Source of the DNA: a virus
DNA length: 57,618 nt
Virus record (IMG/VR): IMGVR_UViG_3300031251_000022
Location: 1-57,618 of that record
Strand: one strand, 5' to 3'
The notes beneath the pieces are model-generated. The model was not told the origin of the DNA, did no database searches, and saw nothing but the letters and a program-made list of their open reading frames with translations. A program made the translations under genes and the position numbers. Shown here piece by piece: positions 243 to 57,618 of this stretch (the stretch's first letter is position 1; the number at the start of each line of letters is the position of its first letter).

Positions 243-1195
243 TCACTGCCCAGTCCCTCGCTCAGCAGTACATCTATCGAGCATGGCGAATTAAGCCGGA
301 TGGCGACGGGCTTGTCAGTATTCCCGGCTACGTCGAGAAGAGCATCGCGGGCGGCGAAGGACTGGGCAGCAACAAGGTCTTTCCGCGACAAATCATCCTC
401 ACCGAAGAGACGGTCGACAAGTACGTCAATGAGGATAACTCGCGGGCATACTCCCCGGCGTTTTGCGACTTCGTTGGCTGGCACAAGCTGCGGGCGGAAG
501 CGGGGAATTGCCCTGGCGGGACTCGGCTCGATTACCAGTCCGTGAACCCCGACGATCCGAATGAGATGGCGTCGTTCTCCATCGACGCGGAACGCGGGCT
601 CGTGTTCACTTCGATTGCCCTGCGACGATTCGAGAATCACGCGGACGGAGACGCGAAGTATCCCGCCCGAGTGTTCATCAATTGTGCCGTGATGATCCGC
701 GACAATCAGACCGGCCAGCCTGTGCGATACTCGAAGCTGAAGGTGGTACCCGGAGCGACTCCCGCCGATCCTGACTCGCCGAAGTTCGTACTGCCAATCC
801 GTGCCGACGACATCACCCAGCATTTCAAGACCACGTACAACATCGACGATGAGAGCGGCGACGGGTCCACCTACGCGACTCTCGACAATCTCGCCGAGTG
901 CGACGAACGGGCCGACTACTACATCAACTGCAAGCTGAAGGAATTCGAGGCTCCACAGGCACTGACGCGAACGTATCAGCTACTCGTTCCGCTCGATCTC
1001 GACGGGGCGATTCAGCAGATCTCCTACACGATCAGCAAGGCCGGGGCGAACACGAAGGCCAGCGTCGGGACGGAGCACGACTTCACCCGGCCGAGCTACC
1101 GCGACGCACAGCAGCGAGTCCTGCGGGGGAAGATCGCGACCGCCGAGAACGAGTGGACGATCCGCCAACTCAAGAGAGAGATGGGCAGTCTATGA
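1..1195 (+). CDS. Tail tip / hub-like protein, C-terminal part (joins 56697..57618)
   Basis: This is the C-terminal part of a 624-residue protein that starts at 56697 and crosses the contig end; the frames agree exactly through the terminal repeat. It lies after the tape measure and two tail-distal genes, where siphophages place the hub or tail-tip protein. No enzymatic motif is seen. The end reads QLKREMGSL, with one copy of the dispersed TGGGCAGT octamer at 1182-1189. The stop overlaps the next start (ATGA at 1192). The hub role comes from position and length and not from a recognised domain. Confidence 0.6.
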   Translation, partial: QVRIELEAVGKEIYDPSKQPSPVPLDPLAPRPTNNADGSWKPVDQLTYIPTENGPPSWETEDEFCGNVSRDKVLQPDGTYVTAQSLAQQYIYRAWRIKPDGDGLVSIPGYVEKSIAGGEGLGSNKVFPRQIILTEETVDKYVNEDNSRAYSPAFCDFVGWHKLRAEAGNCPGGTRLDYQSVNPDDPNEMASFSIDAERGLVFTSIALRRFENHADGDAKYPARVFINCAVMIRDNQTGQPVRYSKLKVVPGATPADPDSPKFVLPIRADDITQHFKTTYNIDDESGDGSTYATLDNLAECDERADYYINCKLKEFEAPQALTRTYQLLVPLDLDGAIQQISYTISKAGANTKASVGTEHDFTRPSYRDAQQRVLRGKIATAENEWTIRQLKREMGSL

Positions 1196-1866
1196 GCGGA
1201 GTTGCCCCGAAGCTGCCATTCCCGATCCTGAATCAGTCCGGCGAGGTCATCCCCCCTCGCTCGGCGGTGCTCGTGACTGGAGTCGTCACCGACACCGATG
1301 GGCAGTTCACGTACTCGACCGTTACCAAGTTCAACGGGGCGTCCGGGAACATCATGGTGACGGGCGACAAGTCCATCGCTATCGGCGGCATGGGGACCGC
1401 ATTCTACGACAACTTCCTTTACGTCTCCGTCGACCCTGGGGCGGCTGATCCTGTCGCAGGCCAGGAATGGGGGCCAGTGTCTGGCTCGTGGGTGCTTGGG
1501 TCGGCCGGATCTGGGTTCGTTGCTCAGGGTGCTCCGCTGTCTGGGAGCAATCCGAAGCGGGCATTGTTTTATCGCAAGCCAGGTGGTGGCGGTTCGCAGA
1601 TCGTTCAGTTCACTCTGACTTCGGCGGACTGTGTCGCCGGGACTGGAATCGCGGTCGTTGATTATGTGATTTGCGATGGGGCTACCGCCTCGCCAGGCGA
1701 TGTGATCGATTTAGTTGATCCGCTCGGGTATTTAACAGGAAACCCCGCACTGCTTGTTAACCACAAGGGCATGGCTGTCCGGATGGCCGAAACAGATCCT
1801 TACAACGGCGACTCCTGCGTCTATTCGATCATCTCAATGGATGATTTGGGCTATAACTGTGCCTAG
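1192..1866 (+). CDS. Hypothetical tail-associated protein
   Basis: This 224-residue protein starts at ATG 1192, overlapping the stop of the tail-hub gene by four bases, so translation is probably coupled. It is rich in Gly, Ser, Val and Thr with a beta-strand pattern and has no signal peptide or membrane segment. The C-terminal third holds spaced cysteines. Its position directly after the hub gene suggests a tail-tip or fibre-attached structural component. I recognise no family. The octamer occurs inside at 1299-1306, where it encodes DGQF. Confidence 0.6.
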   Translation: MSGVAPKLPFPILNQSGEVIPPRSAVLVTGVVTDTDGQFTYSTVTKFNGASGNIMVTGDKSIAIGGMGTAFYDNFLYVSVDPGAADPVAGQEWGPVSGSWVLGSAGSGFVAQGAPLSGSNPKRALFYRKPGGGGSQIVQFTLTSADCVAGTGIAVVDYVICDGATASPGDVIDLVDPLGYLTGNPALLVNHKGMAVRMAETDPYNGDSCVYSIISMDDLGYNCA

Positions 1867-5536: not shown

Positions 5537-5537
5537 G

Positions 5538-5735: not shown

Positions 5736-5760
5736 TTTTGAGAAAACTGCGTTTTGCGTA

Positions 5761-8147: not shown

Positions 8148-9323
8148 TCAACTTTCCTTGCTGCTGTCGTCGGGCGGTGTTGAGTCGAAAGTTGAGTGAT
8201 TTTTCCCGCCTTTCGACTTCCTCACCTCCGCCGATATCTTCTGGGCATCGAGGTTTGCGTAGTAGGTTGTGGTCGTTTTGATGTCCTTGTGTCGCATGAG
8301 TTTCTGCAGGACGACTGGGTACACCCTTGGCGCCCAGCGAGTCCCGAACGTGCGGCGGAGATCCTGGGCGGAAGCGAACTTGCCTCTCCTGTGATCGACC
8401 ACAATACCGGCCTTCTCTCCAATTTCCGAGATCGTACGGGAGAGGTTCGTCTCATTGTTTATCGGGTGCCCTCGCTCCCCAAGTGGATTGAAGACGTGGC
8501 CGTGCCGCTCGCTCTCCGGGGTCCGCAGCAGGAACCTCTCGAAGTCGTCCGTGATCGGCAGACTCGTCGTCGTGCGGCCCTTGTCGTCCTCCGCGTCGAT
8601 CTCAATCACTGGGTACTTTTCCTTGAGGCTGACCCGTGGGGCGATTGGGTCGTCCCAAGACAGCTCGGCGGCTTCTGCCAGGCGAAGACCGGAGATCCAG
8701 AGCCCGATCAACAGGTGTCTCCACGATGCGACCTGAGGCGGGGTGACGACGAGGGAGACCGCCCGCAGCATCTTGACGAACTCCCAGAACGTCAGGTCGC
8801 GGCCCTTCACCTTGCGTCCGCGACTGGTCCTGAGCTTCGCCTCAGGGAGAATGGGTAGTGTCGCCAGATGCCCCTGACCTACTGCCCACTCCAACGCACA
8901 GCGAATCGCGATGATGTGCCCACGGATGGTGTCTTCGGCCCGGCCAAGTCCCCGCAGCTTGGCGATGTATCGGGAGATCTCGACCGAGTCCAGCGAGGCT
9001 AGCGTCTCCGGCTTCATCGTCTTTTCGTAGACGTGCAACTTCGAGATGTGCCACTTCTCCGTCGCCTCATCCATGCTGCTGGTTTCCCGGTCATGGTAGA
9101 CGACGAGGAAGTCTTTCCAAAGGAGCGACCCATCGCCCTTGGGGATTCGCTGGTTGAGTTCCGCCTCCAGCCTCACGCGGGCGGTTTCGGCGTCGCGTTT
9201 CTTGGTGCATTTGCTTGAGCGAGTCTCGCGTTTGCCTGTCTTCGGATCCGTCCACTGGAGATAGAAAAACTTCCGTCCAGCGTCGATCACGTAGACTTTG
9301 ATGGAGTCGGCCGGCGTGCTCAT
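8148..9323 (-). CDS. int: Tyrosine-type site-specific integrase
   Basis: This 391-residue phage integrase has a beta-rich N-terminal arm-binding region, a SAM-like core-binding domain (about 75-160) and a catalytic domain. Visible catalytic residues are R214 (GLRLAEAAELSW), K248 region (DDKGRT), R323 in QDLRRTFGTRW, H345 (LMRHKDIKTTTTYY) and Y354 or Y355. The usual His of the HxxR box is Gln320. Its 5' end overlaps the upstream lipoprotein gene by four bases, so it is the last gene of a three-gene leftward operon. The attP core lies 23 bases beyond its stop. Confidence 0.93.
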   Translation of the reverse strand: MSTPADSIKVYVIDAGRKFFYLQWTDPKTGKRETRSSKCTKKRDAETARVRLEAELNQRIPKGDGSLLWKDFLVVYHDRETSSMDEATEKWHISKLHVYEKTMKPETLASLDSVEISRYIAKLRGLGRAEDTIRGHIIAIRCALEWAVGQGHLATLPILPEAKLRTSRGRKVKGRDLTFWEFVKMLRAVSLVVTPPQVASWRHLLIGLWISGLRLAEAAELSWDDPIAPRVSLKEKYPVIEIDAEDDKGRTTTSLPITDDFERFLLRTPESERHGHVFNPLGERGHPINNETNLSRTISEIGEKAGIVVDHRRGKFASAQDLRRTFGTRWAPRVYPVVLQKLMRHKDIKTTTTYYANLDAQKISAEVRKSKGGKNHSTFDSTPPDDSSKES

Positions 9324-10805: not shown

Positions 10806-11123
10806 ATGACCACCAAGAAGCCAAGGGCGAAGGTGAAGGATCACCAGGCCGAACAGCGGACGTACTCCGCTGGTGTCGACCCAACCGTGAGCTACCCCGT
10901 CAATGACTTCCTGATCGTGGCCCGGCTGTCACGTGCCCGTCTGGCCTACGCCAAGCGGCGTGCGAGAGAAATGGGGATCGATCTCGTCCGTGATACAGGA
11001 ACGCCAACGGTCCTTGGCAAGGACTGGATTGCCTACTGCGAGCGATGCAAGGCGTACACGACCGTTCGCGGTCGACCGCGGCAGTCGAAGGAGTCCACGG
11101 CGGGCAACGCGACTTCCACTTAA
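10806..11123 (+). CDS. HTH_17/MerR-like small DNA-binding protein A
   Basis: This 105-residue basic protein starts at ATG 10806 with GGGAGAG upstream. The core, YPVNDFLIVARLSRARLAYA followed by KRRAREMGIDLVRDTG and VLGKDWIAYCE, is a winged-helix of the excisionase / HTH_17 type. It is a paralogue of the protein at 11212, which shares the same order of motifs and a similar basic tail (RGRPRQSK). As first gene after the early promoter it may be an excisionase, an early regulator or the lysogeny repressor. The exact role is open. Confidence 0.65.
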   Translation: MTTKKPRAKVKDHQAEQRTYSAGVDPTVSYPVNDFLIVARLSRARLAYAKRRAREMGIDLVRDTGTPTVLGKDWIAYCERCKAYTTVRGRPRQSKESTAGNATST

Positions 11124-11211: not shown

Positions 11212-11472
11212 ATGGCAGGAGCCAAGACGAGCACGAGTGGGATCTGGTCGAGTCGATCGTACCCGATTCGCGAGTTCCTCAAGATCATGGGGCTCACTCG
11301 CAAGAAGCTGGCTGAGCTGAGATCACGAGGGCTGATTGTCCGTGATGCGGGCCAGCCTGTGATCCTCGGCTCCGACTGGCATGAGTTCCTCCGATGCTGC
11401 CCTGAGTACCGCCCACTTCGCCGAGGGCCAGGGCGTCCGCGAAACTTCGACAAGTCACCCGCGTCCGACTGA
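11212..11472 (+). CDS. HTH_17/MerR-like small DNA-binding protein B
   Basis: This 86-residue protein starts at ATG 11212. Residues 15-65, starting with YPIREFLKIMGLTRKKLAEL and continuing RSRGLIVRDAG with VILGSDWHEFLR, form a clear helix-turn-helix plus wing of the excisionase / HTH_17 group. The tail RRGPGRPRN is AT-hook-like. It is a paralogue of the protein at 10806 and is preceded by tandem TTGACCA repeats. The pair could form a regulatory switch or combine excisionase and repressor roles. Confidence 0.7.
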   Translation: MAGAKTSTSGIWSSRSYPIREFLKIMGLTRKKLAELRSRGLIVRDAGQPVILGSDWHEFLRCCPEYRPLRRGPGRPRNFDKSPASD

Positions 11473-12267: not shown

Positions 12268-12406
12268 AGTCTGCGTCCTGTCGTCGAAAGGTGACAGGGT
12301 GAAGATCGGAGTGAAAGGCCCTCAACGAGTTGTCCGCGATCTGGTCGACGGACGAGCCAAACAAGCAAGAAAGGACAAGGTGGGCAGTGAGCCAAACGAC
12401 CTGTGA
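12203..12406 (+). CDS. csrA: CsrA/RsmA-type RNA-binding regulator
   Basis: This 67-residue protein starts at ATG 12203 with GGAGG five bases upstream. It begins MLILTLTIGGSVIVG and continues with VCVLSSKGDRVKIGVKGPQ, matching strands 1-5 of CsrA (MLILTRRVGE, VKIGI-type motif), then a short C-terminal helix. CsrA dimers bind GGA-containing hairpins near ribosome sites and change translation and mRNA stability. A phage copy could redirect host carbon or motility control, or regulate phage leaders, several of which form hairpins nearby. It has an insertion of a few residues between strands 2 and 3 relative to the usual family. Confidence 0.75.
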   Translation: MLILTLTIGGSVIVGEGDAATEVCVLSSKGDRVKIGVKGPQRVVRDLVDGRAKQARKDKVGSEPNDL

Positions 12407-13385
12407 ATTCCCCGATCTCGACACAACGCCGGATGACACCGACGATCTGCTCGCGGGCATCGGCATCGACATCGATGCGGAGATTGAAACGACCCTCTCC
12501 GCAGACGACGCGGCGAAGGCGGCAGAGGCTGAAGGGCTGGAGCGAATCCGCGAGTTCATCGCATCGCCTGCCAGGACTGGCGAGCCGTTCTACTTGGACT
12601 TTGAGACGATCCCCGACTTCTCGCGGATGGAGGCATTCGGGCTCGATCCACTGCCCACTCTTCCACCTGTGGAGGGGCTGGACGAGCTTCTCCCTCCCGA
12701 CCAGTTCCTATCGCAAACAGTCCCTGAGATCGACGCCTACCTGGGTCGTCACAATCCGCCAGGGGAGTGGATTGCGGAAGTGATTGAGACAGAGAAGGCT
12801 GGCAAGGCCCGCAAGGGAGTCTTCGAGAAGATCGAAGCTCACCAGCGGCGGATCTCGTCTATCGCCAACGCGGAAACGGATCGCATCAAGCTCATGTCCG
12901 TGACGCCGATGATGTGCCGCATCTGCTCGATGGCGTTCGCTGTCGGGCGGGACAAGCCGAGATCGATCTACTGCGGCGATAACACGCTCATGGAAAAGCA
13001 CGTCCTTGATATGGCTTGGAAGCTGATCCATCGGCACGGCCCACTCATCGGGTTCGGCGTCGGATTCTTCGACATCCCCGTTCTGCTGACGCGGTCGATG
13101 GTGCTGCGGGTTCACCCGTCGAAGGTGCTGGATCGGAAGCGATTCGGATCATCTGACGTGCTGGACTTGGGGCAGGAGCTGTACGGCGGAGGGAGGAATC
13201 TCGGACTCAAGCCGACGTGTGCGAGCCTGGGGATTGAGGCGTCGCTGCCGGACGTGGATGGGTCGCAGGTCTACGAGATGTTTAAGGCCGGCCGGACTGA
13301 CGAGATCCGGGCGTACAACGAGAGCGACGTTGATCTGGTTCAGCGTCTGCACCTCGACCGAATGGCAGGGTACTTCTGCGTCTAG
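12387..13385 (+). CDS. 3'-5' exonuclease, RNase H-like (DnaQ / PolB exonuclease type)
   Basis: This protein has 332 residues from GTG 12387, which sits inside a TGGGCAGTG octamer and overlaps the csrA end. Exo I motif FYLDFETI lies near residue 70, Exo II IGFGVGFFDIPVLL near 220 and Exo III YNESDVDLV near 309, giving the DEDD metal ligands. The arrangement fits predicted 3'-5' exonucleases related to the PolB proofreading domain. It probably acts in phage DNA recombination with the following RecT. An acidic N-terminal segment carries DDLLAGIGI, a motif repeated at the ends of two other phage proteins. Confidence 0.8.
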   Translation: MSQTTCEFPDLDTTPDDTDDLLAGIGIDIDAEIETTLSADDAAKAAEAEGLERIREFIASPARTGEPFYLDFETIPDFSRMEAFGLDPLPTLPPVEGLDELLPPDQFLSQTVPEIDAYLGRHNPPGEWIAEVIETEKAGKARKGVFEKIEAHQRRISSIANAETDRIKLMSVTPMMCRICSMAFAVGRDKPRSIYCGDNTLMEKHVLDMAWKLIHRHGPLIGFGVGFFDIPVLLTRSMVLRVHPSKVLDRKRFGSSDVLDLGQELYGGGRNLGLKPTCASLGIEASLPDVDGSQVYEMFKAGRTDEIRAYNESDVDLVQRLHLDRMAGYFCV

Positions 13386-13528: not shown

Positions 13529-14662
13529 ATGACCGACTCGACTTCACTCTCGATTCTCGACAGGGTCCAAGACCCGCAGAACTTCATCATCGGCATGGGC
13601 AAGATGTTTGCCCTGTCTGCCATGTTCGGCTGCAAGACTGAGCCGCAAGGGATCGTGCTCGCGATGCACTGTGCGATGGAGCGAGTCTCCCCACTCAAGA
13701 TCATGTCGCGTTACCACTTCATCGACGGCAAACTGCGGATGAAGGCTGCGGCAATGCTCGCCGAGTTCAGGCGGATGGGTGGTCAGCACACCTGGGTTAA
13801 GGACGGAAGCGACGGAAAGGTTGCGACAATCGAACTGCGACTCGGCGAAGAAAAGGTCACATCGACATTCACGATTGACGACGCGAACCGCCAGGGGCTG
13901 GTCAAGGCCGGGTCCGCATGGACGAAGGCACCGGCGAACATGCTCCGCTGGCGGGCGGTGTCGAATGGCGTTGACATGATCTGTCCGGAAGCGGGGATCG
14001 AAGGGTCAGGGCTGGACGAGTCCGACGATCCGAACGACGGCGAGATCATCGACGTGACGGCTGAACCTGTCAGCCCTGCTCCTGCTCCGGCGAACCCCGC
14101 TCAATCTGCCGCCGAAAAGAAGACTCGCAAGGCAAAGGCCGAGTCCGCTCCCGCTCCTGCCGCGACGGAATCTGCACCCGCTCCCGCGGCTCCCGCGACG
14201 ACCGAACCAATTCAGCAGCAGTCCAGCGAGCCCGCTCCGCAGGAGACTACCCACTCGACTGCGGCTGCGGCTGTGGCGCCCACGACGGCAGCAGCGGAAC
14301 CGGCTCCCGCTGCTGAACCTGCCCCTGCAGCGACCCCTTCCGCCGATCTCCCGCCCATCGTCACCGAGATCCTGCAGTTAATCGACTACGTCGGCAAGCG
14401 ATGGCCATCCGACAAGGGGACATGGGACGACGCCTTCGGCAAGGTGAAGTCGGTACTCAAGTTCCCGGAAGGCAACACGCTCGCGGAGCAGGTGACGAAG
14501 CTCCCTGACGCAATTCGCCAGAAGCTCGCCGGATGGCTCAACACCGAGCGACAGAAGATCGACCGTCTCGGCGGGGCGAAGGATCTATCGGCCTGGGCGA
14601 ACCAGTCCCCTCAACAGGCGGCGGCAGCAGCGGCAACGTCGACCCCCGCATCCGCGAGCTGA
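13529..14662 (+). CDS. recT: RecT-family single-strand annealing protein
   Basis: This 377-residue protein starts at ATG 13529 (AAAGGAAAA upstream). Residues 1-190 resemble RecT-type recombinases: FIIGMGKMFALSAMFGCKT, VLAMHCAMERVSPLKIM and the KAPANMLRWRAVS segment near 155 correspond to conserved positions of the family. Residues 195-300 are an Ala/Pro/Thr-rich linker, followed by a helical C-terminal domain of about 70 residues that most RecT proteins lack. With the upstream exonuclease it forms an annealing-recombination pair. Confidence 0.75.
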   Translation: MTDSTSLSILDRVQDPQNFIIGMGKMFALSAMFGCKTEPQGIVLAMHCAMERVSPLKIMSRYHFIDGKLRMKAAAMLAEFRRMGGQHTWVKDGSDGKVATIELRLGEEKVTSTFTIDDANRQGLVKAGSAWTKAPANMLRWRAVSNGVDMICPEAGIEGSGLDESDDPNDGEIIDVTAEPVSPAPAPANPAQSAAEKKTRKAKAESAPAPAATESAPAPAAPATTEPIQQQSSEPAPQETTHSTAAAAVAPTTAAAEPAPAAEPAPAATPSADLPPIVTEILQLIDYVGKRWPSDKGTWDDAFGKVKSVLKFPEGNTLAEQVTKLPDAIRQKLAGWLNTERQKIDRLGGAKDLSAWANQSPQQAAAAAATSTPASAS

Positions 14663-14829
14663 ACCCTGCCCTGCAAGCTCTCGCAACTCGGCACGGGTTC
14701 GAGCGGCTTAACGATGCGTGCCTGGAATCACTCGGATACCCGCTGGTGATGACTCATCAGCAGAGCGAAATCGAAACGGCAATTCGGCATTTACTGGCAA
14801 CACAAGCACAAACAAGGAATCGATCATGA
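14533..14829 (+). CDS. Hypothetical short frame overlapping the recT end
   Basis: The frame has 98 codons from ATG 14533, but only the part from about 14640, ending with HQQSEIETAIRHLLATQAQT, looks like a real protein. The first 35 codons lie inside recT in another frame and read as shadow. Either a non-ATG start lies near 14660 (CTG after the recT stop region), or the segment was once part of the recT product. The frame stops on the ATGA of the next gene, typical of a real coupled gene. Confidence 0.35.
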   Translation: MAQHRATEDRPSRRGEGSIGLGEPVPSTGGGSSGNVDPRIRELNPALQALATRHGFERLNDACLESLGYPLVMTHQQSEIETAIRHLLATQAQTRNRS

Positions 14830-15518
14830 GCACGGGAACAGATTGGGCGAACGACGTTGGCGGAGAACTCCCGACATCGGACGACGGGTTCGGATTCAGC
14901 GGCGGCGAGTTCGGCTTCGACGATATGGACGTGACCGGCGTCGACGCGAAGGAAGTGGGCAGTGGGCATCTGAAGGTCGACAAAAAGGGCTGGTATCAGT
15001 TCCGCATCGAGGCGACTGCGAAGCCGAAGCCGTACGAAGAGAACGACATGAGCAAGCCTCGCAAGCCGTCGATCTCCCTGCGGATGGTCGTCGTCGCGAG
15101 TGACAACGGGACTCCACCCGGAGCGATTCACTATCACGATCTGATCCTGGGCGGCAAGGGGGCAGGCGTCGCGGTGGATAAGTGGGATATGGAGCGGACG
15201 CTGAACTTCCTCGTGGGCTGCGGCGTGCTGCGGAAGGAAGGCGACAAGGTCATCGACCCTGAGACGGGAACCACGAAGATCCGATCGAGCACGCTGGAAA
15301 AGCGACTGAGCGGGCTGAACGTCATCGGCAAGATCGAACTGACTCCTGCCAGGACGGACGAGAAGAGCGGCAAGACGTACTCCGAGCGGATCGAATTCCC
15401 GTTCGGGCGAGGGCTGTTCCACCCGGCCGCGAAGGAAGTCGCCCATCATAAGTGGGTGAACGACGAAGTGCTGAAGGCTGCGGGGATCGTCCGCGGTGCC
15501 GCGAAGCCGAATGCGTGA
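14826..15518 (+). CDS. DUF669-like single-stranded DNA-binding protein
   Basis: This 230-residue protein starts at ATG 14826, coupled to the frame above. The acidic N-terminal tail (TSDDGFGFSGGEFGFDD) is followed by a beta-rich OB-like core with WYQFRIEATAKPKPYEE, ISLRMVVVASDNG, HDLILGGKGAGVAVDKW and LSGLNVIGKIEL. This is the pattern of phage DUF669 proteins that sit beside RecT and act as ssDNA-binding proteins. The acidic tail is at the N-terminus rather than the C-terminus. An octamer of the TGGGTAGT variant begins right after the stop (15519-15526). Confidence 0.65.
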   Translation: MSTGTDWANDVGGELPTSDDGFGFSGGEFGFDDMDVTGVDAKEVGSGHLKVDKKGWYQFRIEATAKPKPYEENDMSKPRKPSISLRMVVVASDNGTPPGAIHYHDLILGGKGAGVAVDKWDMERTLNFLVGCGVLRKEGDKVIDPETGTTKIRSSTLEKRLSGLNVIGKIELTPARTDEKSGKTYSERIEFPFGRGLFHPAAKEVAHHKWVNDEVLKAAGIVRGAAKPNA

Positions 15519-16766: not shown

Positions 16767-19166
16767 ATGTCCGCTCCACTCCAAGAACTTCGCGGCACGT
16801 TCCGTCGCCTCGCCTACTCAGCAAAAGGCGATGGGCGGCGGTTCGTCATCGCGGCAATCGAAGTCGACGGAGAGGAGAAGCACGTCTCCGTCAAAGGCGA
16901 CGCGGACCCGAACGAGTTCATTCACGATTTGCAGTATCGATTCTGGGGCAAGTGGGAAAAGGCCAATGACTATGGCAAGCAGTTCGCATTCAAGCAGCTC
17001 AAACGAGACGAGCCTCACTCCCGCGTCGCCGTCGTCGGATACCTGCGACAGTTCGCGACTGGCATCGGACCCGTCTACGCTGCCCAGCTCTGGGACGCAT
17101 TCGGAGCCGACGCAGTTCGTGTTCTGCGAACTGATCCGCATCGTGCAGCGGTGGCACTCGGCATCCCGGCATCGCGAGCCAGGGGCGCCAGCGACGCACT
17201 GAACCGCGACGGGGCGAATGAGGATCTGCGGCTCGAACTCGTCCAGCTTTTCGAGGGGCGGGGGTTTCAAAAGAAGCTCGTCGATCAGGTGATCAAGCTC
17301 TGGGGGCTGTCCGCTCCGCAGAGGATTCGACGCGACCCATTCACTTTGTTGGTTCATCGTCTGCCGAGCTGCGGGTTCGCCCGATGTGATCGGCTGTATG
17401 TCGATCTCGGTCTGCCGATGGAGAGATTGAAACGGCAATTCGCCTGCATCTGGAAGTCGCTGAAGGACGACGGCGAGGGGCACACGTGGCACCCGATGGA
17501 GGCCGCAGCGAAGGCGGTCATGCAGGGGGTCAGCGGTCTGCCGGAGGGAAAGCTCAACTGGCAGCGTGCGGTGCGACTTGGCGTGAGGGCCGGGTGGCTG
17601 CGGGTCCGCAAGGATGAGAACGGGAAGTGGTGGGTAGCCGAAGCGAGGCGAGCTGACAATGAGTTGGCTGTCGCGGCGGACATGCGGAGATTGATGGGAG
17701 GGCGGGACGATGGACGAACAGACATTCAGAACAGTGCGGACAGTGATCTTCGCGACAGCGATCTTATCGGCGATACTGTCGTCGGCGGTGACGATGATCG
17801 TGATGCAGATGTCAAAGTAGCCTGGCCAAACCCAGACGACATCAAAGGACTGACCGCCCACCATCGCGAGCAACTCCGCATCGCCTTCGCCGGCCGCGTC
17901 GGCATCCTCACCGGAGACCCTGGCACTGGCAAGACGACCGCCGCGTCCCTCGTGCTTCGGCATCTCCGCAGCACTATCGGAGCGGAGCATCTACTCGTGT
18001 GCTCGCCAACGAACCTCGCGGCGATGCGGCTGCGGGACGTGCTCGCCTCGCACGGAGTCACGGACGTTCCTGTTACCACTTTCCACCGAGCACTCGGAGC
18101 ACAACGCAATGGACACGACGGAGCTGGCTGGGGATTTTTTCACCATCGAGGCAACCCGCTTCCTTGCAAGGTGCTTTTCGTCGACGAGGACTCGATGCGA
18201 GATGTTGATATTTCAGCAAGTCTCCTCCAGTCTCTTCGTGACGGAACGCTCGTTCTCTTTCTGGGTGACACTAACCAGCTTCCCCCAGTGGGACATGGGG
18301 CACCACTCCGCGACGGAATCGCAGCGGGAATCCCTCACGGACACTTTACGGAAGTGCTTAGAAACTCGGGCTCAATCACGGACTTCTGCCGCAACGTCAG
18401 GGCCGGGAGACGACCCACTCCACCGGCGGTCATCGACCTCGAAGCCGATCTCAACTGGAAGCACTTCGAGACGTCATCTCCAGAAAGCCAAAAGGCGATT
18501 CTGGGGTCGCTCCTGAGCACGTTGGGCAACTTCGAGATTGACGGGCAGAAGATCGACCCTATCCGCGATGCACAGATCCTGGTCGCACTGAACGAGAAGG
18601 GCGACCTGTCGCGGAAGGATCTCAACACGCTGGCCCAGTCGATCCTGAATCCCTTCGGCGAGACGGTCGACGGGAATCGGTTCCGCGTCGGCGACAAGGT
18701 GATCTGCCAGGAGGGCTGCAGTCTTAGCCTGTGGGTCGACCCGGAGGAAGTGGGCAGTGACGAACTTGCGGAACGCGAGGACGAGACGCTGAAAGAGTTC
18801 GTCAGCAACGGCGAGATCGGCATCGTCACGCGGGTGGAGAAGCGGTTCTCGGTTGTCGAGCTGGCCGGGGAGAGAATCGTCCGCGTGCCTGCCGCGAGAG
18901 GCGATGACGAGAGCACAGGGAACTTCGATCTCGCGTATGCGGTGACGTTCCATAAGGCCCAAGGAAATCAGTGGAAAATCGTGTTCTGCCTGAGCGACCG
19001 AGCGGCGAACAGGATGGGTAGTCGCGAGTTGTGGAACACGGGCGGAAGCCGTCCACAGATGCTGCTCGTGACGATCGGGGAGTTGGCGACGATTCAGAGG
19101 CAATGTCAGCGTGTGGCACTGCGGGACCGGAATACGTTTCTGAAGGAGCTGATCTGCGATGTGTGA
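16767..19166 (+). CDS. RecD-like SF1B DNA helicase
   Basis: This 799-residue protein starts at ATG 16767. The N-terminal region has an OB-like part and a helix-hairpin-helix (ATGIGPVYAAQLW near 95). The motor has Walker A GDPGTGKTT (about 382-390), Walker B VLFVDEDS (about 470), motif III LGDTNQLPPVG (about 500) and the C-terminal VTFHKAQGNQW motif (about 728), as in RecD2/TraI helicases. It probably unwinds DNA 5' to 3' in replication or recombination. DED-S replaces the more common DEA-S in motif II. The next gene overlaps its end. Confidence 0.88.
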   Translation: MSAPLQELRGTFRRLAYSAKGDGRRFVIAAIEVDGEEKHVSVKGDADPNEFIHDLQYRFWGKWEKANDYGKQFAFKQLKRDEPHSRVAVVGYLRQFATGIGPVYAAQLWDAFGADAVRVLRTDPHRAAVALGIPASRARGASDALNRDGANEDLRLELVQLFEGRGFQKKLVDQVIKLWGLSAPQRIRRDPFTLLVHRLPSCGFARCDRLYVDLGLPMERLKRQFACIWKSLKDDGEGHTWHPMEAAAKAVMQGVSGLPEGKLNWQRAVRLGVRAGWLRVRKDENGKWWVAEARRADNELAVAADMRRLMGGRDDGRTDIQNSADSDLRDSDLIGDTVVGGDDDRDADVKVAWPNPDDIKGLTAHHREQLRIAFAGRVGILTGDPGTGKTTAASLVLRHLRSTIGAEHLLVCSPTNLAAMRLRDVLASHGVTDVPVTTFHRALGAQRNGHDGAGWGFFHHRGNPLPCKVLFVDEDSMRDVDISASLLQSLRDGTLVLFLGDTNQLPPVGHGAPLRDGIAAGIPHGHFTEVLRNSGSITDFCRNVRAGRRPTPPAVIDLEADLNWKHFETSSPESQKAILGSLLSTLGNFEIDGQKIDPIRDAQILVALNEKGDLSRKDLNTLAQSILNPFGETVDGNRFRVGDKVICQEGCSLSLWVDPEEVGSDELAEREDETLKEFVSNGEIGIVTRVEKRFSVVELAGERIVRVPAARGDDESTGNFDLAYAVTFHKAQGNQWKIVFCLSDRAANRMGSRELWNTGGSRPQMLLVTIGELATIQRQCQRVALRDRNTFLKELICDV

Positions 19167-19356
19167 CCTATGCAGTACCGACGAAAAGGAAAGAGAAGCT
19201 GCCCGCAGTCAACTGCGATACGAGGCAGAGCGGCTTCGCGAACTGGCTGCGTACCTCGAATCCATCGCCTCAGGATCCGTTAAGCCACACGCACCGGGAA
19301 TGGCCCTGGGTCCGATGGCGGCTGGCGTGATCCGCATTTGTGCCGAGTACCTGTGA
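19159..19356 (+). CDS. Hypothetical small helical protein
   Basis: This 65-residue protein starts at ATG 19159, overlapping the helicase stop by eight bases. CDLC at the N-terminus may bind metal; the rest is a long charged helix (REAARSQLRYEAERLRELAA) followed by a short hydrophobic part. It is translationally coupled between the helicase and the ERCC4 nuclease, so a partner role is possible. No family is recognised. Confidence 0.55.
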   Translation: MCDLCSTDEKEREAARSQLRYEAERLRELAAYLESIASGSVKPHAPGMALGPMAAGVIRICAEYL

Positions 19357-19358
19357 TC

Positions 19359-19949
19359 ATGAAAGACGAACCGGCTCACTGCCCATTTAGCATCTGCTGC
19401 GACAATCGCGAGCAATCGCCCTGGTCGTTCCGTGGACTCACTGCCAACGCGGACCGTGACTACCGCCCACTTCTTGTGGATGTGCGGCCCGCGACTCTCG
19501 CGACCGGGGACTACTCCATCGCAGGGTTCGAGTCGCAGATCACCATCGAGCGGAAGTCGCTCTCCGATGCGTTCTCCACCTTCACTCACGACCGCGAACG
19601 GTGGGAGCGGGAGCTTGAACGGATGCGATCCATCCCGTCCTGCCATGTCGTAATCGAGGCGGGGTGGGAGGAGCTGTCGGCAGGGCCAGTCCGCGACGGC
19701 GGGGCGAAGGTGGGTAAGGCGGTGATGCGGTCCATCTTCGCATGGACGATCCGCTACCCGCACGTCCACTGGTGGGCGATGCCATCGCGGGAGTTCGCGG
19801 AGGTCACGGCGTTTCGCTTGCTCGAAAAGTTCTGGGAGGAGGATCAATGGCAGTTGAAGGAGTTGGGGAAACTGAGCCTCGAACCCGCGTCAGGCTCACC
19901 AAGGAAGTCAAGACAGTCGCGGGAAACACGTTCCCTACCGGGACTCTGA
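19359..19949 (+). CDS. ERCC4-domain (XPF/Mus81-type) nuclease
   Basis: This 196-residue protein starts at ATG 19359. The nuclease core is visible: D15-x-R17-E18 (CDNREQSPW), L-x-TGDYSI (GD at 50-51) and IERKSLSD with E64-R65-K66 and D70, the conserved V-E-R-K-x3-D motif of ERCC4 nucleases. It should cut branched or flap DNA. It carries no HhH pair, which phage forms often lack. The last 34 residues are coded in a region overlapping the next gene by 103 bases and look unconserved. Confidence 0.82.
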   Translation: MKDEPAHCPFSICCDNREQSPWSFRGLTANADRDYRPLLVDVRPATLATGDYSIAGFESQITIERKSLSDAFSTFTHDRERWERELERMRSIPSCHVVIEAGWEELSAGPVRDGGAKVGKAVMRSIFAWTIRYPHVHWWAMPSREFAEVTAFRLLEKFWEEDQWQLKELGKLSLEPASGSPRKSRQSRETRSLPGL

Positions 19950-20681: not shown

Positions 20682-22100
20682 ATGAACGACTACAAATCCT
20701 TCCTCGCTAACAAGCGGACCTATCGCCCCGACAGCGGCATCGTCATCGAGCAGGGCGAACTCAACCCGCTCCTCAAGCCGTGGCAGGGGGACTGCGTGCG
20801 GTATCTCCTGCGACGTGGTTCCGCCGCAGCCTTCGAGGAGTGCGGTCTCGGCAAGACTTTCCAGCAGCTTGAATGGGCATACCAAGTTGCCAAACACACT
20901 GGCGGACTCGTGCTCGTCCTGTGCCCCCTCGCGGTCTCTCACCAGACGCACCGAGAGGCAGATCGATTCAACGTCTGCCGAGACAAGTCACTGCCCATCG
21001 GTGTGTACGGTTCGCACGATGCCATTCCGTTCACCAATGGAATCGTCATCGCGAATTACGAGAAGCTCAAGCATCTCAAGCCAGAGCGGTTCGCGGGGGT
21101 CGTGCTCGATGAGTCGTCGATCCTGAAATCATTCAACGGAAAGACGAAACAGGGCTTGTGCCAATCCTTCGAGGCGACGCCATTCCGCCTCGCCTGCACG
21201 GCGACCCCCGCCCCGAATGACCAGATGGAGCTTGGCAATCACTCCGAGTTCCTTGGTGTGCTCCGCTCGTCCGAAATGCTCATGCGGTGGTTCATCAACG
21301 ACACCATGCACGCGGGGAAGTACCGCCTGAAGGGGCACGCCGAGGCGGATTTCTGGGACTGGGTCAGCTCGTGGGCAGTGTCACTGGAGACGCCGGACGA
21401 TCTCGGGTACCCCGCTGACGGGTACGTGCTCCCGCCGCTGAACATCCACGAGCACGAAGTTGAAGCGGACGACGCGGCGCCCACAGGCAGCGGGCTGCTA
21501 TTCCGTAATGAAACGATCAACGCGACGACGGTCCACAAGGAAAAGCGGCAGTCCTGTGCGGCCCGGGCGGAAGTCGTCGCAGGGCTTGTGAACAATTCCA
21601 CAGAAGCGTGGGTGGTGTGGTGCGATACAGACTACGAAGCGGATGAACTGGTCAAGCGAATCCCCGATGCCGTCGAGGTTCGCGGGTCAATGAAGGAGTC
21701 GAAGAAAGAACAGCACATCGACATGTTCTCTCTCGGCTTGGCTCGCGTGATCATTAGTAAGCCCGAAATTTGTGGGTTTGGCCTAAATTGGCAGCACTGC
21801 CACAAGACCGCCTTCGTCGGCCTGTCGTACTCGTTCGAGCGATTCTATCAGGCGATCCGCCGCCTGTGGCGATTCGGCCAGTTGTTCCCGGTCGATTGCC
21901 ACGTCGTCAACTCGGCGGCCGAGCAAGTCGTCTGGCGAGCCGTGAAGCGGAAGGAACAGGAACATCGCCTCATGAAGCGGTCGATGTCTCAGGTGATGCT
22001 CGCCAGCCAGATGGAGCGAGTCAGAGGGAAGCTGCGGGTCGAGTCGTATCGGCCCGAGATGAAGATTGAACTGCCCAGTTGGGTGAAAGCGAGAGCGTGA
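20682..22100 (+). CDS. SNF2-family DNA helicase/translocase
   Basis: This 472-residue protein starts at ATG 20682, five bases after the previous stop at 20679 in effect. Motif I EECGLGKT (about 52-59), Ia VLVLCPLAVSHQ, II LDESSILK (about 140), III TATPAPND (about 172) and the C-terminal motifs GFGLNWQHC (about 366) and YQAIRRLWRFGQ (about 388) define an SF2/SNF2 motor. It is paired with a DNA methylase in the next gene, a common phage pair, and may load or steer the methylase or aid replication restart. It is shorter than chromatin SNF2 proteins, as usual in phages. Confidence 0.85.
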   Translation: MNDYKSFLANKRTYRPDSGIVIEQGELNPLLKPWQGDCVRYLLRRGSAAAFEECGLGKTFQQLEWAYQVAKHTGGLVLVLCPLAVSHQTHREADRFNVCRDKSLPIGVYGSHDAIPFTNGIVIANYEKLKHLKPERFAGVVLDESSILKSFNGKTKQGLCQSFEATPFRLACTATPAPNDQMELGNHSEFLGVLRSSEMLMRWFINDTMHAGKYRLKGHAEADFWDWVSSWAVSLETPDDLGYPADGYVLPPLNIHEHEVEADDAAPTGSGLLFRNETINATTVHKEKRQSCAARAEVVAGLVNNSTEAWVVWCDTDYEADELVKRIPDAVEVRGSMKESKKEQHIDMFSLGLARVIISKPEICGFGLNWQHCHKTAFVGLSYSFERFYQAIRRLWRFGQLFPVDCHVVNSAAEQVVWRAVKRKEQEHRLMKRSMSQVMLASQMERVRGKLRVESYRPEMKIELPSWVKARA

Positions 22101-22104: not shown

Positions 22105-23157
22105 ATGGACTGCCTCAACCAAGAATCCGGCAACAATTGGGCGATGTACCACGGCGACTCGTGCGAGTTGATCAAGTCCATCCCGGACAGCTCGATTGAC
22201 TTTTGCATCCACTCCCCGCCATTCGCCAATTTGTACACGTACTCCGACAGCGAAGCGGACATGGGGAACTGTCAGTCCACCGAGGAGTTCATTGCCCATT
22301 ACAAATTCCTCATCGCCGAGCTGCTCCGCGTCACCGTGCCTGGTCGCCTCTGTGCGATCCACGTCAAGGATTTGCCGCGTTACAAGAACCGTGACGGAGC
22401 CTCGGCCCTGGAGCGGTTCCCCGACAAGTGTGCGGACGCCTTCGAGGAATGCGGCTGGGATTTCCATTCTCGCGTCACGATCTGGAAGTGTCCCGTCACC
22501 GAGCGAGAGCGAACGAACAACTGCGGCCTGCTCCACAAGTCGATTCTTCGCGACTCGTCCTGTGTCCGGCAGGGGATGGCAGACTTCCTTCTCGTGTTCC
22601 GCAAGAATCCCGGCGACACGCTCCTCAGCGAAAAGCCAGTCGCGCGACCGCAGGGGCTGACCGAATACATCGGCGACGAGCGATTCAATCCGCTCAGTTC
22701 GGACTACCACCCATCTCCCTACGCTCGCACCGGAAAGCCTGACCCGATCCAGTCGTCGATCTGCGTCTGGCGGAGATATGCCGAGCCAGTATGGTGGGAC
22801 ATCGATCAGACCGACGTGCTGAATTACAAGGTCGCGACAAGCGAGAAGGACGAGAAGCATATCTGCCCGCTCCAGATGGGAGTCATCAAGCGATCCATCC
22901 AGCTATGGACGAACCCCGGAGACACGGTACTGACCCCCTTCGGCGGCATCGGCAGTGAGCTTGTCGGGGCAATGCGTCTTGAGCGGAAGGCGATCGGCTT
23001 CGAGTTGAAGAAGGAGTACTTCCAGCAGGCCTGCAAGAACTGTCGGATTGAGGAATCTTACGTCGACGCGCCGCGGCTTCAGTTCGACGAGGAAGTGGGC
23101 AGTGAAGGCGGCGGCACAGCGGACATGGACGACGAACTCGCGGGGATCGGGATCTGA
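22105..23157 (+). CDS. Beta-class DNA methyltransferase (N4-C or N6-A)
   Basis: This 350-residue protein starts at ATG 22105. Motif IV is SPPF (about residues 37-40) and comes before the SAM motif TPFGGIGSELVGA (about 277-289), the beta-class order. SPP-type motifs are typical of N4-cytosine enzymes but also occur in some N6-adenine enzymes. A Trp-rich segment (WRRYAEPVWWDIDQTD) precedes the SAM motif. The C-terminus ends DMDDELAGIGI. It probably protects phage DNA or marks specific sites. The recognition sequence is unknown. No restriction partner is seen. Confidence 0.85.
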   Translation: MDCLNQESGNNWAMYHGDSCELIKSIPDSSIDFCIHSPPFANLYTYSDSEADMGNCQSTEEFIAHYKFLIAELLRVTVPGRLCAIHVKDLPRYKNRDGASALERFPDKCADAFEECGWDFHSRVTIWKCPVTERERTNNCGLLHKSILRDSSCVRQGMADFLLVFRKNPGDTLLSEKPVARPQGLTEYIGDERFNPLSSDYHPSPYARTGKPDPIQSSICVWRRYAEPVWWDIDQTDVLNYKVATSEKDEKHICPLQMGVIKRSIQLWTNPGDTVLTPFGGIGSELVGAMRLERKAIGFELKKEYFQQACKNCRIEESYVDAPRLQFDEEVGSEGGGTADMDDELAGIGI

Positions 23158-40199: not shown

Positions 40200-40217
40200 C
40201 TGAAGGAGTGGGCAGTC

Positions 40218-40472
40218 ATGGACATTCCGCCAGTGTCGTCCAGCGGCATACCGGACAAGAGCAAGCCGAAGTCGTCGAGCGAGAGTCCGCAGGTGCTCTA
40301 CCTGAAGATTCGACGCGGGATGAAGTGGACGTACTGGTCAGAAGACGGTGAGGTCGATTCGCTGTCTCTCGCGACGGAGATCAAGTTTTACCGAGAGGCG
40401 AAGGTGATGGTTCAGGAATGGATTCGGAAGCCAGGCGTCGATGCCTGTGAAGTGGAGATCGTGACGCGATGA
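40218..40472 (+). CDS. Hypothetical small protein
   Basis: This 84-residue protein starts at ATG 40218; the octamer TGGGCAGT (40209-40216) lies directly in front of the start, next to AAGGAG. After a Ser/Lys-rich N-terminus comes a small beta/alpha region (YLKIRRGMKWTYWSEDGEVD). It overlaps the portal start by four bases. Not recognised. Confidence 0.5.
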   Translation: MDIPPVSSSGIPDKSKPKSSSESPQVLYLKIRRGMKWTYWSEDGEVDSLSLATEIKFYREAKVMVQEWIRKPGVDACEVEIVTR

Positions 40473-48707: not shown

Positions 48708-49373
48708 ATGGCGCTGTCGACAGTAACATCGGTGAAGACTCAGGCGGGGATTCCTGCGTCCGATACGTCGCGAGACGATCAGATTGCAGCGATCCTCGCT
48801 GGCGTTACTGCCCACGTCAAAAACACGCTGAACCGCGACATTGAGCAGGCGACCTACACCGAATACTACTCGGGGGACGGTACGCCTGTCCTGCTGCTGC
48901 GACAGAGGCCAGTCACCTCGATCACGTCCATCTATCTCGACAATGCGGGCTACTGGGGAGACGGGGCGAACAGCCCATTCTCCTCGCCGCGGCTGCTGGT
49001 GGACGGGGTCGATTATGCCCTGCGGCGAACGTCGGCGACCCTCGGATCTCCTGCCGGTCTGGTCTATCGGATCAACGGAGTCTGGAACTACCCGACGCGA
49101 CGGCAGCAAGGCTACGTGAGCAACCAGCCAGGTGTGGGAAACGGCAATCTCAAGGTCACGTACATGGCGGGGTTCCCGACGATTCCGGCTGACCTGCAGA
49201 TGGGCGTGAACTCACTCGTGATGCGGATCCTGAACGCGGCGGCGATGGGCGGGCAGGCACAGCAGGCGAGCTACGAGGACGCGAGCGTCGTCTACCTCGC
49301 ACCGGGGGAAGCGGCCAAAATGATGGGCAGTATCGAAGCGGCACTGGCGCCACACGCGGACGTTCCAGTTTAG
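48708..49373 (+). CDS. Head-tail connector protein (gp6-like)
   Basis: This 221-residue protein starts at ATG 48708. The N-terminal VTSVKTQAGIPASDTSRDD and IAAILAGVTAHVKNTLNRD helices, followed by LLLRQRPVTSITSIYLD, are typical of phage gp6-like / QLRG head-tail connectors. A long insert holds Tyr/Asn-rich residues. It completes the portal-side adaptor. The end contains an octamer (49324-49331) and another stands between it and the next gene (49380-49387). Confidence 0.75.
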   Translation: MALSTVTSVKTQAGIPASDTSRDDQIAAILAGVTAHVKNTLNRDIEQATYTEYYSGDGTPVLLLRQRPVTSITSIYLDNAGYWGDGANSPFSSPRLLVDGVDYALRRTSATLGSPAGLVYRINGVWNYPTRRQQGYVSNQPGVGNGNLKVTYMAGFPTIPADLQMGVNSLVMRILNAAAMGGQAQQASYEDASVVYLAPGEAAKMMGSIEAALAPHADVPV

Positions 49374-49389
49374 AACGAATGGGCAGTAG

Positions 49390-49758
49390 ATGATCTCGAA
49401 CCAGCTCGCACGAGCGTTGAGGGACCAGACGATTCCGCAGTCAGAGCGGTTTCCGGCTACCGTCACGCTCCTGCCGGACTCGGGTTCACCGACGACAATC
49501 GCTGCCCAGGGGTGTTGGTGGAAGCCGCTCGACGTGACGCTGGACAACTACGGCGGGATCCTGCTGGAGGGGTCCGAGCGGATCATCAACATTCCCGCCG
49601 AATGGATTCACACGACAGGGGCACCCGCCGAGGCCCGCCAGGAGATCCGCCGTCGCGACCGCGTGACGGTGGGCAGTGTCAGCTATCTCGTGCTCTCGGC
49701 TGGCCTGCGGTCTGTATCGTCGCGATGGGAATGCCTCGTCAGGGAGATTGAGGCATGA
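49390..49758 (+). CDS. Head-tail joining protein candidate
   Basis: This 122-residue protein starts at ATG 49390, directly behind a TGGGCAGT octamer. The beta-rich profile (FPATVTLLPDSGSPTTIAAQ, DRVTVGSVSYLVLSAGLRSV) and position suit a stopper or head-tail joining protein. It overlaps the next gene by four bases. No firm family. Confidence 0.55.
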   Translation: MISNQLARALRDQTIPQSERFPATVTLLPDSGSPTTIAAQGCWWKPLDVTLDNYGGILLEGSERIINIPAEWIHTTGAPAEARQEIRRRDRVTVGSVSYLVLSAGLRSVSSRWECLVREIEA

Positions 49759-54351: not shown

Positions 54352-54662
54352 TTGCGACCGCCCATCTCACTCCGCTAGGATGCACGCTCCCAGATGTTCC
54401 CACGTCTTCGGGTGCGACGCTTCCCATGTCAATCGAGCGAGATGTCGACGGCATTCGCGACGAGATTTCCGAGCTTTGGAACTGTATCAAGCAATTCCAG
54501 AACGTGCTCGCCGCTTTGAAAACGTCCGACGACGCCAAGACGAAATACCTCGTTGAGCTGAACGAGTATCTGAAGCAGTTGCAGTCGAAAGTTGAGGAGC
54601 TTGGCGGGACTCCCCCGCCAGTCCCTGACAGGCTGAAGGACTTCTGGGGGCACAAGAATTGA
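54348..54662 (+). CDS. Hypothetical tail-region protein
   Basis: This 104-residue protein starts at ATG 54348 in an ATGA overlap with the tape measure. A central coiled coil (RDEISELWNCIKQFQNVLAA and on) dominates. An internal ATG at 54426 (MSIERDVDGIRDE) gives 78 residues and could be the true start. It overlaps the next gene by four bases. Confidence 0.5.
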   Translation: MIATAHLTPLGCTLPDVPTSSGATLPMSIERDVDGIRDEISELWNCIKQFQNVLAALKTSDDAKTKYLVELNEYLKQLQSKVEELGGTPPPVPDRLKDFWGHKN

Positions 54663-55390: not shown

Positions 55391-55426
55391 CCACTGACCG
55401 CAGACGATTCAATGGAGTGATTTGAC

Positions 55427-56668
55427 ATGGCAACAAAGCGATGGGTGGGCGGTGCTCAGTCGGTCAAGGACGTGTGGACCCTGACGCTTTCGGGGACCGT
55501 CACGAGTCAGACCTACACGATCACGATCGGGACGAAGTCGATCTCGTATACGGCTGGCGGGGCAGATACGCAGGCGGTGATCTTCGCGGCACTGCTGGCA
55601 ATGTGGAACTCGACAACATCGCCCGTTCCGCCAGAGTTCAAGGAACTGACGGCGACCGGCGGCGTGACGAATCTCGTGCTCACGGGGACGGTCACTGGAC
55701 GGCCCAGCGTTGTCTCGTTTACGACGGGCGGCGGAGCGACGGCGACGGCGACGAACACGATCCCCGCGAGCGGCCCATCCTTTTTCAACGTCGCGGCGAA
55801 CTGGTCAGGCGGCGTGGCGCCAGCGAACAGCGATATACTCGTCTTCGACTCGGGTTCCGTCCCCTGCAAGTACGGGCTGTCGTCAACCCTCACGGGTGTG
55901 ACAGTGCAGGTCAATCCCGGCTACAGCGGCACGATCGGTTTGACCGACGTGAACTCGGATGGGAATTCCTACCACGAGTACCGCACGACATCCCTGACGC
56001 TCGACGGCGGAACTCTGGTCTGCAACTCGCCGAATATCAGGCTCTGCCGCCTCGCGTTCGGGACAACCCTCGCGACGGTGCGAGTGCTCAACAGCGGCCA
56101 GCGTCTCGACCCGAATGCCCCTGCCGTTCTGATCACGGGCGGGGCGGTTTCGAGCGAATGCGATGTCACCCGCGGCGATGTGGGACTGGCGTTCTATGCG
56201 GGGGAGACAGCGAACTTCCCCACGCTCAAGATCGGCTACGTCACTCAGCAGCAGTCGGACGCACGAGTCTACGGTGGCGTCGGGCTGACGGTGACGACGA
56301 TCACCAAGACGGGCGGTGATCTCACGCTCAACAGCAACGCGACGACGATCACCCAGGGACCGAACGGCGGGACGCTGACTGTCGCAGCTGGTGCGGTGAC
56401 GACCTTGAACGCGAACGGCGGGAGCGTGGTGTACAACTCGACGGGGACACTCGGCACGCTGAACATCCGGAACGATGGGGCGGTCAGCTTTGACGCGGAC
56501 CCGCGAGGGGTGACGGTGACGAACACGATCAACATGTACGGCCCATCTGCTCGGCTGAAGGATAACCAGAAGCGAGTCAGCTCGGGCGTTCTCACGGTCG
56601 CGACGACTGGGACGCCAGCCGGGAACATTGAGCACGATGTCACCAATACGTCGATCGTGCTGACGTAA
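55427..56668 (+). CDS. Beta-rich tail/receptor-binding candidate
   Basis: This 413-residue protein starts at ATG 55427. The N-terminal 100 residues have Thr/Gly-rich strands (TLTLSGTVTSQTYTITIGTK), then a repeating beta-solenoid-like region (SLTLDGGTLVCNSPNIRLCR, TTITKTGGDLTLNSNATTIT, GTLTVAAGAVTTLNANGGSV). Phage tail adhesins and host autotransporter-like proteins have similar repeats. It lies between the distal tail and hub genes, so a tail-tip role is likely. Confidence 0.6.
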   Translation: MATKRWVGGAQSVKDVWTLTLSGTVTSQTYTITIGTKSISYTAGGADTQAVIFAALLAMWNSTTSPVPPEFKELTATGGVTNLVLTGTVTGRPSVVSFTTGGGATATATNTIPASGPSFFNVAANWSGGVAPANSDILVFDSGSVPCKYGLSSTLTGVTVQVNPGYSGTIGLTDVNSDGNSYHEYRTTSLTLDGGTLVCNSPNIRLCRLAFGTTLATVRVLNSGQRLDPNAPAVLITGGAVSSECDVTRGDVGLAFYAGETANFPTLKIGYVTQQQSDARVYGGVGLTVTTITKTGGDLTLNSNATTITQGPNGGTLTVAAGAVTTLNANGGSVVYNSTGTLGTLNIRNDGAVSFDADPRGVTVTNTINMYGPSARLKDNQKRVSSGVLTVATTGTPAGNIEHDVTNTSIVLT

Positions 56669-56696
56669 CTCACGCAAGAGGAATGGGTGGTCAGGG

Positions 56697-57618
56697 ATGG
56701 CCCGCAACGAAGAGAAACTCGCGACCGTCACCTATCCGGGGATTCTCCAGTATGAGGACTGGGACTTCACGGATCAGGCTGGAATTGCACCCGCGACAGG
56801 GATCATGACCGTCTATCCGCAGCCGAATCCGCCTGCACTGGAGGGCGACATCGTCATGCAGCAGGGGACGAATCGAATCGTCCTGCGGCGGATGCGTGTC
56901 GACAAGGTCTTCTACCAGGCAGGCAGCGGGGGGCAGGTCGCACAGGTCACGTTCCTTGACGAGCGATGGCGGTGGAATCAGGGCTACGTGATCCATGGGC
57001 GGTACAACACGCGACTCCCCGACAGCACCGTCGACCCACTCAGGGAGAAGAAGCCGATCGAGCTTGCCGAGTTGCTCATCGAGGCGATGGACGCGGACAA
57101 CATCGACGCGGGGATTCTGGAGAGCGACCCTGATATCGCGAACGACCGGCCCGAGGTAGGGTGGGACGTGTCGAATCCCGCTCAGGAATTGCAGCGACTG
57201 TGCGAGCTGTACGGATTGCGGATCGTTCCGCAGCGGTCGACGGGGAAGTTCGTCCTCTGCCGCACCGGGGTAGGTGGGCAGTTACCAGAGGGCTTGCCGT
57301 ATCAAGACCCATCACAGGGAATCGACCCGAAGGAGATTCCTGACGCGGTGCAGGTGTTCGGGGCACCGATCCGCTATCAGGTCCGCATCGAGTTGGAGGC
57401 GGTCGGGAAGGAGATTTACGACCCGTCCAAGCAGCCGTCGCCAGTCCCGCTCGATCCGTTGGCGCCAAGGCCGACGAACAATGCGGACGGATCGTGGAAG
57501 CCGATTGATCAGCTCACGTACATCCCTACAGAGAATGGGCCGCCATCTTGGGAAACAGAGGACGAATTCTGCGGGAATGTCTCGCGAGACAAGGTTCTCC
57601 AGCCTGACGGGACGTACG
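56697..57618 (+). CDS. Tail tip / hub-like protein, N-terminal part (joins 1..1195)
   Basis: The start is ATG 56697, six bases after the octamer variant TGGGTGGT (56684-56691). The first 307 residues are here, and the frame continues at base 1 through the terminal repeat. Features are VTYPGILQYEDWDFTDQAG near the N-terminus, TFLDERWRWNQGYVIHGRYN, and AQELQRLCELYGLRIVPQRS, the last typical of baseplate hub domains (gp27/gpD-like). It should form the tail tip and trigger ejection. An octamer lies at 57275-57282. Confidence 0.65.
   Translation, partial: MARNEEKLATVTYPGILQYEDWDFTDQAGIAPATGIMTVYPQPNPPALEGDIVMQQGTNRIVLRRMRVDKVFYQAGSGGQVAQVTFLDERWRWNQGYVIHGRYNTRLPDSTVDPLREKKPIELAELLIEAMDADNIDAGILESDPDIANDRPEVGWDVSNPAQELQRLCELYGLRIVPQRSTGKFVLCRTGVGGQLPEGLPYQDPSQGIDPKEIPDAVQVFGAPIRYQVRIELEAVGKEIYDPSKQPSPVPLDPLAPRPTNNADGSWKPIDQLTYIPTENGPPSWETEDEFCGNVSRDKVLQPDGTY
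57377..57618. repeat. Terminal direct repeat, right copy
   Basis: Second copy of bases 1-242, differing only at 57504 (A here, G at 128) as far as I can see. It marks where the assembled circle or redundant molecule was cut. Confidence 0.95.

Follow-up and report, generated by a model that had tools for sequence, protein, structure and literature searches.

The viral record IMGVR_UViG_3300031251_000022 of IMG/VR (57,618 bp; this whole stretch is referred to here as the window) carries 49 exact copies of the octamer TGGGCAGT, and our analysis supports that this octamer is a real dispersed site at the DNA level, independent of protein sequence, codon usage, gene position, and transcription. By analogy with known dispersed words, we tentatively read it as a Chi-like site for a recombination or end-processing enzyme whose putative reader is probably encoded by the phage; we hold this assignment as possible rather than probable. 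A literature search for the octamer as a word found no mention of it. Since the ends of the window overlap by 242 bp (positions 1 to 242 and 57377 to 57618, identical at 241/242 positions with a single mismatch at position 128), the genome is complete, with a length of ~57,376 bp; the overlap causes no double counting of sites.

Distribution and shape of the octamer

The copies of TGGGCAGT lie on both strands (34 on the plus and 15 on the minus strand), at a density of ~0.85 per kb, or about one per 1.2 kb. An earlier note on this DNA had reported at least 48 copies; all the coordinates and strands it listed are correct. Against a third-order Markov model, the check proposed in that note, TGGGCAGT ranks first among all octamers of the genome, with 49 copies versus 2.9 expected (z = 27; observed/expected ratio, ~17), and it also ranks first at order 4, where 5.6 copies are expected. 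Models of order 5 and order 6 lower the excess, expecting 15 and 36 copies, respectively, as an artifact of composition or codon usage would predict; however, these orders lose power because such models absorb the word itself. The called genes, whose boundaries are our own calls plus a few added by hand, contain 42 copies, whereas 200 synonymous-codon shuffles that kept the proteins and the codon usage left, within coding sequences (CDS), 2.7 copies on average and 7 at most. When homologs encoded by G001, L029, and L030 were aligned, the residues overlying a site were nearly as well conserved (45% identity) as the proteins overall (50%), and the DNA word was absent at 18 of 19 aligned sites. 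Overall, the claim of the earlier note that protein sequence does not explain the copies is borne out, and with the models of orders 3 and 4, the codon shuffles, and the wordless homologs all rejecting it, an artifact has a next to negligible probability.

The sites are spaced at random (coefficient of variation, 0.88; 95% of random sets fall within 0.75 to 1.25), and 4 of the 49 lie outside CDS versus 5.5 expected, which indicates no preference for intergenic gaps. It had been noted that about 70% of the copies face the direction of transcription. The plus-strand bias itself is true, but the ratio of 34:15 matches the strand-specific background of 1.91:0.98 (binomial P = 0.65); therefore, facing transcription is no property of the site. 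An FtsK-orienting polar sequence (KOPS), also put forward in the earlier note, is likewise argued against because there is no strand polarity in excess of composition.

The same placement bears on the comparison with stoperators made in the earlier note, under which an immunity repressor would bind TGGGCAGT and silence the prophage. Such an assignment would suit a temperate phage with an integrase and a short asymmetric site present in dozens of copies per genome, as in Cluster A phages, and near-cognates of the octamer are tolerated. However, stoperators are defined as intergenic and oriented (PMC6550527, PMC9283540); those of Cluster A have a length of 13 bp and their orientation follows transcription. 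As a positive control, the same word scan was applied to two phages of Cluster A, Peaches and RedRock, where it recovered the stoperator core ATGTCAAG as the top and the fourth word, respectively; 12 of 17 and 11 of 13 of these sites were outside genes (70 to 85%), versus 0.8 expected. Since both intergenic placement and excess orientation are absent from the intragenic TGGGCAGT, a stoperator does not fit, and no repressor family was recognized in three candidate small proteins. We consider an operator function improbable.

Regarding its shape, the recognized element is nearer to RR-TGGGYRGT than to the bare octamer. Purines occupy positions -2 and -1 in 86% and 88% of the copies, respectively, versus ~55 to 60% at other TGGG sequences. 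Three near-cognates are also enriched, namely, TGGGTGGT (14 versus 1.4 expected), TGGGCGGT (15 versus 3.8), and TGGGTAGT (9 versus 0.6), and the purine flank recurs at them. The simplest account would be a recognizer which accepts any pyrimidine-purine step at the center of the site. A second over-represented word, the palindrome TGGCGCCA, was found at seven places (84, 3263, 10150, 32721, 49345, 55815, and 57460), two of which are the terminal repeat; its excess may reflect strong avoidance in the background.

The word TACTSAGTA and its recombination module

Several TerL relatives of the window carry a different dispersed word, TACTSAGTA, whose central base is C or G almost without exception. 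The carriers are Chloroflexota-type phages and prophages (L022, L118 to L120, G004, G093 to G098, G105, and G210:C27:144366-173209) with 0.3 to 1.0 copies per kb; in most of them the density is about 0.5 to 1.0 per kb and the excess over Markov expectation 50- to 220-fold, and a pair search yielded further contigs with 11 to 33 copies each. An Anaerolineaceae assembly of 3.1 Mb holds 21 copies, every one of them within a single 29-kb prophage, a distant TerL relative. With only ~2.5 copies expected elsewhere in the assembly, this clustering shows phage specificity and not avoidance by the host chromosome. Genome-wide enrichment was seen in 0 of 251 Chloroflexota genomes, one of which holds a second prophage-like cluster of 13 copies in ~29 kb.

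TACTSAGTA is not concentrated between genes. When orthologous CDS of the prophage L022 and of G004 were compared, five of nine word positions were common to both, versus 9.3% of all 9-mers being identical, and at two of these five the central base differed, C in one and G in the other, while the rest of the word stayed intact. This retention, with flipped centers, indicates that selection acts on the word within coding sequence.

The structural genes of the carriers, including the capsid gene, are unrelated, and one module is common to them. It comprises a 243-residue protein, an ERCC4 nuclease, RecT or Sak4 as annealing protein, a RecB-like exonuclease, a HARP/DnaJ protein, a VWA-type protein, and a VapE helicase. 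The 243-residue protein gave a model of medium confidence (predicted local distance difference test score [pLDDT], 68) with weak matches to single-stranded DNA (ssDNA)-binding proteins. Of the 10 viral records scanned that bear the word, 6 have ERCC4 (the other four are three fragments of <17 kb and one of 23 kb), as does the Anaerolineaceae prophage, compared with 1 of 19 records lacking such a word. This association of ERCC4 with the word is suggestive, in carriers that are related to each other. The window, too, encodes an annealing protein (RecT) and ERCC4, together with a RecD2-like helicase and an exonuclease, and a distant homolog of its RecT-like protein occurs in G004. TACTSAGTA resembles TGGGCAGT in its similar density, its location within genes, its lack of linkage to transcription, and its occurrence in phages that encode both an annealing protein and ERCC4.

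Gene content and searches for further carriers

The window carries genes for a tyrosine integrase and a tailed-phage structural module, along with a DNA module of RecT-like, exonuclease, RecD2-like, SNF2, methyltransferase, ERCC4, and primase-helicase proteins. The features are collected in Table 1.

Table 1. Octamer sites and selected genes of the window
Feature	Position(s)	Strand	Basis or remark
TGGGCAGT, part 1	1182 (1182..1189), 1299, 4281, 12381, 14956, 16048, 16627, 18751, 20053, 21372, 23096, 23392, 29026, 29696, 30572, 30933, 33516	+	
TGGGCAGT, part 2	34279, 35870, 36160, 37128, 37344, 40209, 41251, 42622, 43643, 46146, 47184, 49324, 49380, 49670, 53216, 55051, 57275	+	
TGGGCAGT	245 (245..252), 8881, 9683, 12650, 19378, 20990, 22070, 24007, 28285, 29212, 40983, 45191, 48807, 49877, 50851	-	
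Densest TGGGCAGT run	49324..49677	+	copies at 49324, 49380, 49670
TGGGCAGT outside CDS (one of few)	40209..40216	+	between Shine-Dalgarno-like AGGAG and ATG at 40218
Near-cognate TGGGTGGT	13776..13783	+	
Tyrosine integrase (temperate phage)	8148..9323	-	PF00589, phrog_1
Small protein, GRPR tail	10806..11123	+	paralog of 11212-11472, 39% identical
Small protein, GRPR tail	11212..11472	+	neighboring paralog of 10806-11123
3'-5' exonuclease (PolB exo2/RNase H fold), candidate reader	12387..13385	+	PF10108
RecT-like ssDNA annealing protein	13529..14662	+	phrog_561, 3e-17
Possible ssDNA-binding protein adjoining RecT	14826..15518	+	position only
Full-length RecD2-like helicase (OB_YrrC, HHH_RecD2, AAA, UvrD_C), candidate reader	16767..19166	+	PF14490, PF13245, phrog_4412
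ERCC4-type nuclease, candidate reader or partner	19338..19949	+	PF02732 (5e-8), phrog_3490
SNF2-type helicase	20682..22100	+	phrog_62, PF00176
N6/N4 DNA methyltransferase	22105..23157	+	PF01555

The fold model of the possible ssDNA-binding protein had a pLDDT of 42, and the two small paralogs with GRPR tails had no Pfam match and belong to no known family. A match covering 80% of the RecD2-like helicase was seen in only one phage record. Searches of viral contigs with the major capsid, RecD2, and RecT proteins found no relatives.

The methyltransferase gene raises the possibility, also listed in the earlier note, that TGGGCAGT is a modification target or a self-recognition mark, and the strictness of TACTSAGTA does resemble that of restriction-type sites. 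This alternative is weakened by ~80 contigs that carry the same methyltransferase at 58 to 68% identity and show no enrichment of the word, and over-abundant targets are unusual for methylation sites; we regard it as very unlikely. A nucleoid, partition, or packaging protein of the phage might instead coat or mark the DNA through TGGGCAGT with no role in recombination. The random, orientation-free, and gene-independent placement and the phage specificity of TACTSAGTA would agree with such a protein, whereas no ParB-like gene was recognized among the window proteins searched and TACTSAGTA goes with a recombination module. This possibility also appears unlikely.

The window is the single known carrier of dispersed TGGGCAGT, no second one being found among viral contigs with close pairs of the octamer. 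Two loci from that search, L212 and L219, proved to be tandem repeats, and one contig, G075, has a separate operator-like element, AGTGGGCA, upstream of starts. In this contig (L293, G075:20001-40000), AGTGGGCA occurs 18 times in 16 kb in a single orientation, often just 5' of the start codons of small genes, and has the look of an operator or a stoperator. The idea that structural genes determine the word was rejected, since G001, with a common structural module and a TerL 66% identical, has one TGGGCAGT in 76 kb. Other words were seen along the way. The 13-kb TerL relative L002 over-represents GAGTACTC; Halorubrum virus HRTV-25 (L304) has ~20 copies of GGTTGGGT, mostly beside start codons, and 9 dispersed and apparently mostly intragenic copies of GGCAGGAAG; and the palindrome CCTGCAGG is over-represented in Planctopirus pPLIM01 (L109), a phage-plasmid with head, tail, and Gam-type genes.

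Among candidate hosts, TGGGCAGT reached at most ~0.06 per kb in 198 Actinomycetota and 60 relatives of a Deferribacterales metagenome-assembled genome, a set that probably lies outside the host lineage of the window. Two plasmid stretches of Planctomycetota, a phylum only guessed as the host from protein style, had no TGGGCAGT.

A Chi-like reading and known dispersed sites

Of the functions suggested in the earlier note, a Chi-like one survives as the best remaining class, given an exact octamer over-represented and dispersed in coding DNA. In the mechanism that we propose, a helicase-nuclease or annealing complex would move in from a DNA end and, on meeting TGGGCAGT, would change its activity, so that degradation stops and RecT is loaded; phage DNA would then escape destruction and be recombined into concatemers. 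The candidate readers are the RecD2-like helicase, the ERCC4 nuclease, and the exonuclease, a phage-encoded reader being more likely than a host-encoded one. We infer that TGGGCAGT belongs in the class of TACTSAGTA, that a protein binds it, and that these events take place at the site.

Several points weigh against this proposal. Some carriers of the identical TACTSAGTA have RecT for annealing and others Sak4, and as the annealing protein changes type with no change of word, it does not set the word. ERCC4 alone as the setter was also rejected, since G085, Drs3, and HRTV-27 have ERCC4 and no comparable word. What connects the window with the TACTSAGTA phages is limited to TerL, a single small structural gene, a distantly related RecT, and the ERCC4 domain. 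In addition, TACTSAGTA is palindromic, stricter, and present in many diverged phages, whereas TGGGCAGT is non-palindromic. Finally, known Chi sites depend on orientation, while TGGGCAGT has no excess orientation, and the ~17-fold enrichment and density of 0.85 per kb exceed those of Chi in lambdoid phages, which is enriched about 2- to 3-fold at 0.2 per kb (PMC3784561).

This last difference also counts against TGGGCAGT being the Chi site of a host enzyme of the RecBCD/AddAB type, of which the phage would hold many copies for its survival. There is precedent, as E. coli phages without RecBCD inhibitors over-represent the host Chi (Bobay et al. 2013, PMC3784561), and TGGGCAGT is, like E. coli Chi, GCTGGTGG, an asymmetric G-rich octamer dispersed within genes. 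However, none of the Actinomycetota and Deferribacterales-related genomes examined came near the enrichment of the window, and the sister word TACTSAGTA is specific to phages, its host chromosome not sharing it as a word. We judge a borrowed host Chi unlikely, though a serious rival.

Going beyond the Chi-like reading of TGGGCAGT itself, some temperate phages might have a private Chi, a word specific to the phage and foreign to the host chromosome that recurs roughly every kb and whose reader is a recombination or end-processing enzyme of the phage, with TGGGCAGT and TACTSAGTA as two dialects. We advance this generalization as doubtful. If true, phage and host DNA ends would be handled differently, and dense intragenic words would give a simple sequence test for further such systems and their readers.

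Among known systems, the SPbeta repeated element (SPBRE), to which MrpR binds, is a phage-specific element repeated across a prophage, but its about ten copies are located in promoter regions (PMC10516654) and not within genes. The Neisseriaceae uptake-type words AGGCTGCC and AGGCAGCC were observed in phage DNA of L013 and L023 at ~1.2 per kb. The DNA uptake sequence (DUS) of Neisseriaceae is a host-wide word; in prophages its density, about 1 per kb, is like that of TGGGCAGT, whereas TACTSAGTA, the closest tested analogue of TGGGCAGT, is found only in phages. E. coli Chi shares with TGGGCAGT the exact octamer on both strands and, in phages, is linked to recombination functions; it differs in that the near-cognates TGGGYRGT of TGGGCAGT are enriched too and that RecT and RecD2-like proteins are encoded by the phage itself. 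The dispersed phage words known so far are either borrowed host Chi or sites for repressors, located in promoters and gaps, whereas a dense, phage-only, intragenic word accompanied by a recombination module would let a virus label its DNA so that it is recombined and spared from degradation.
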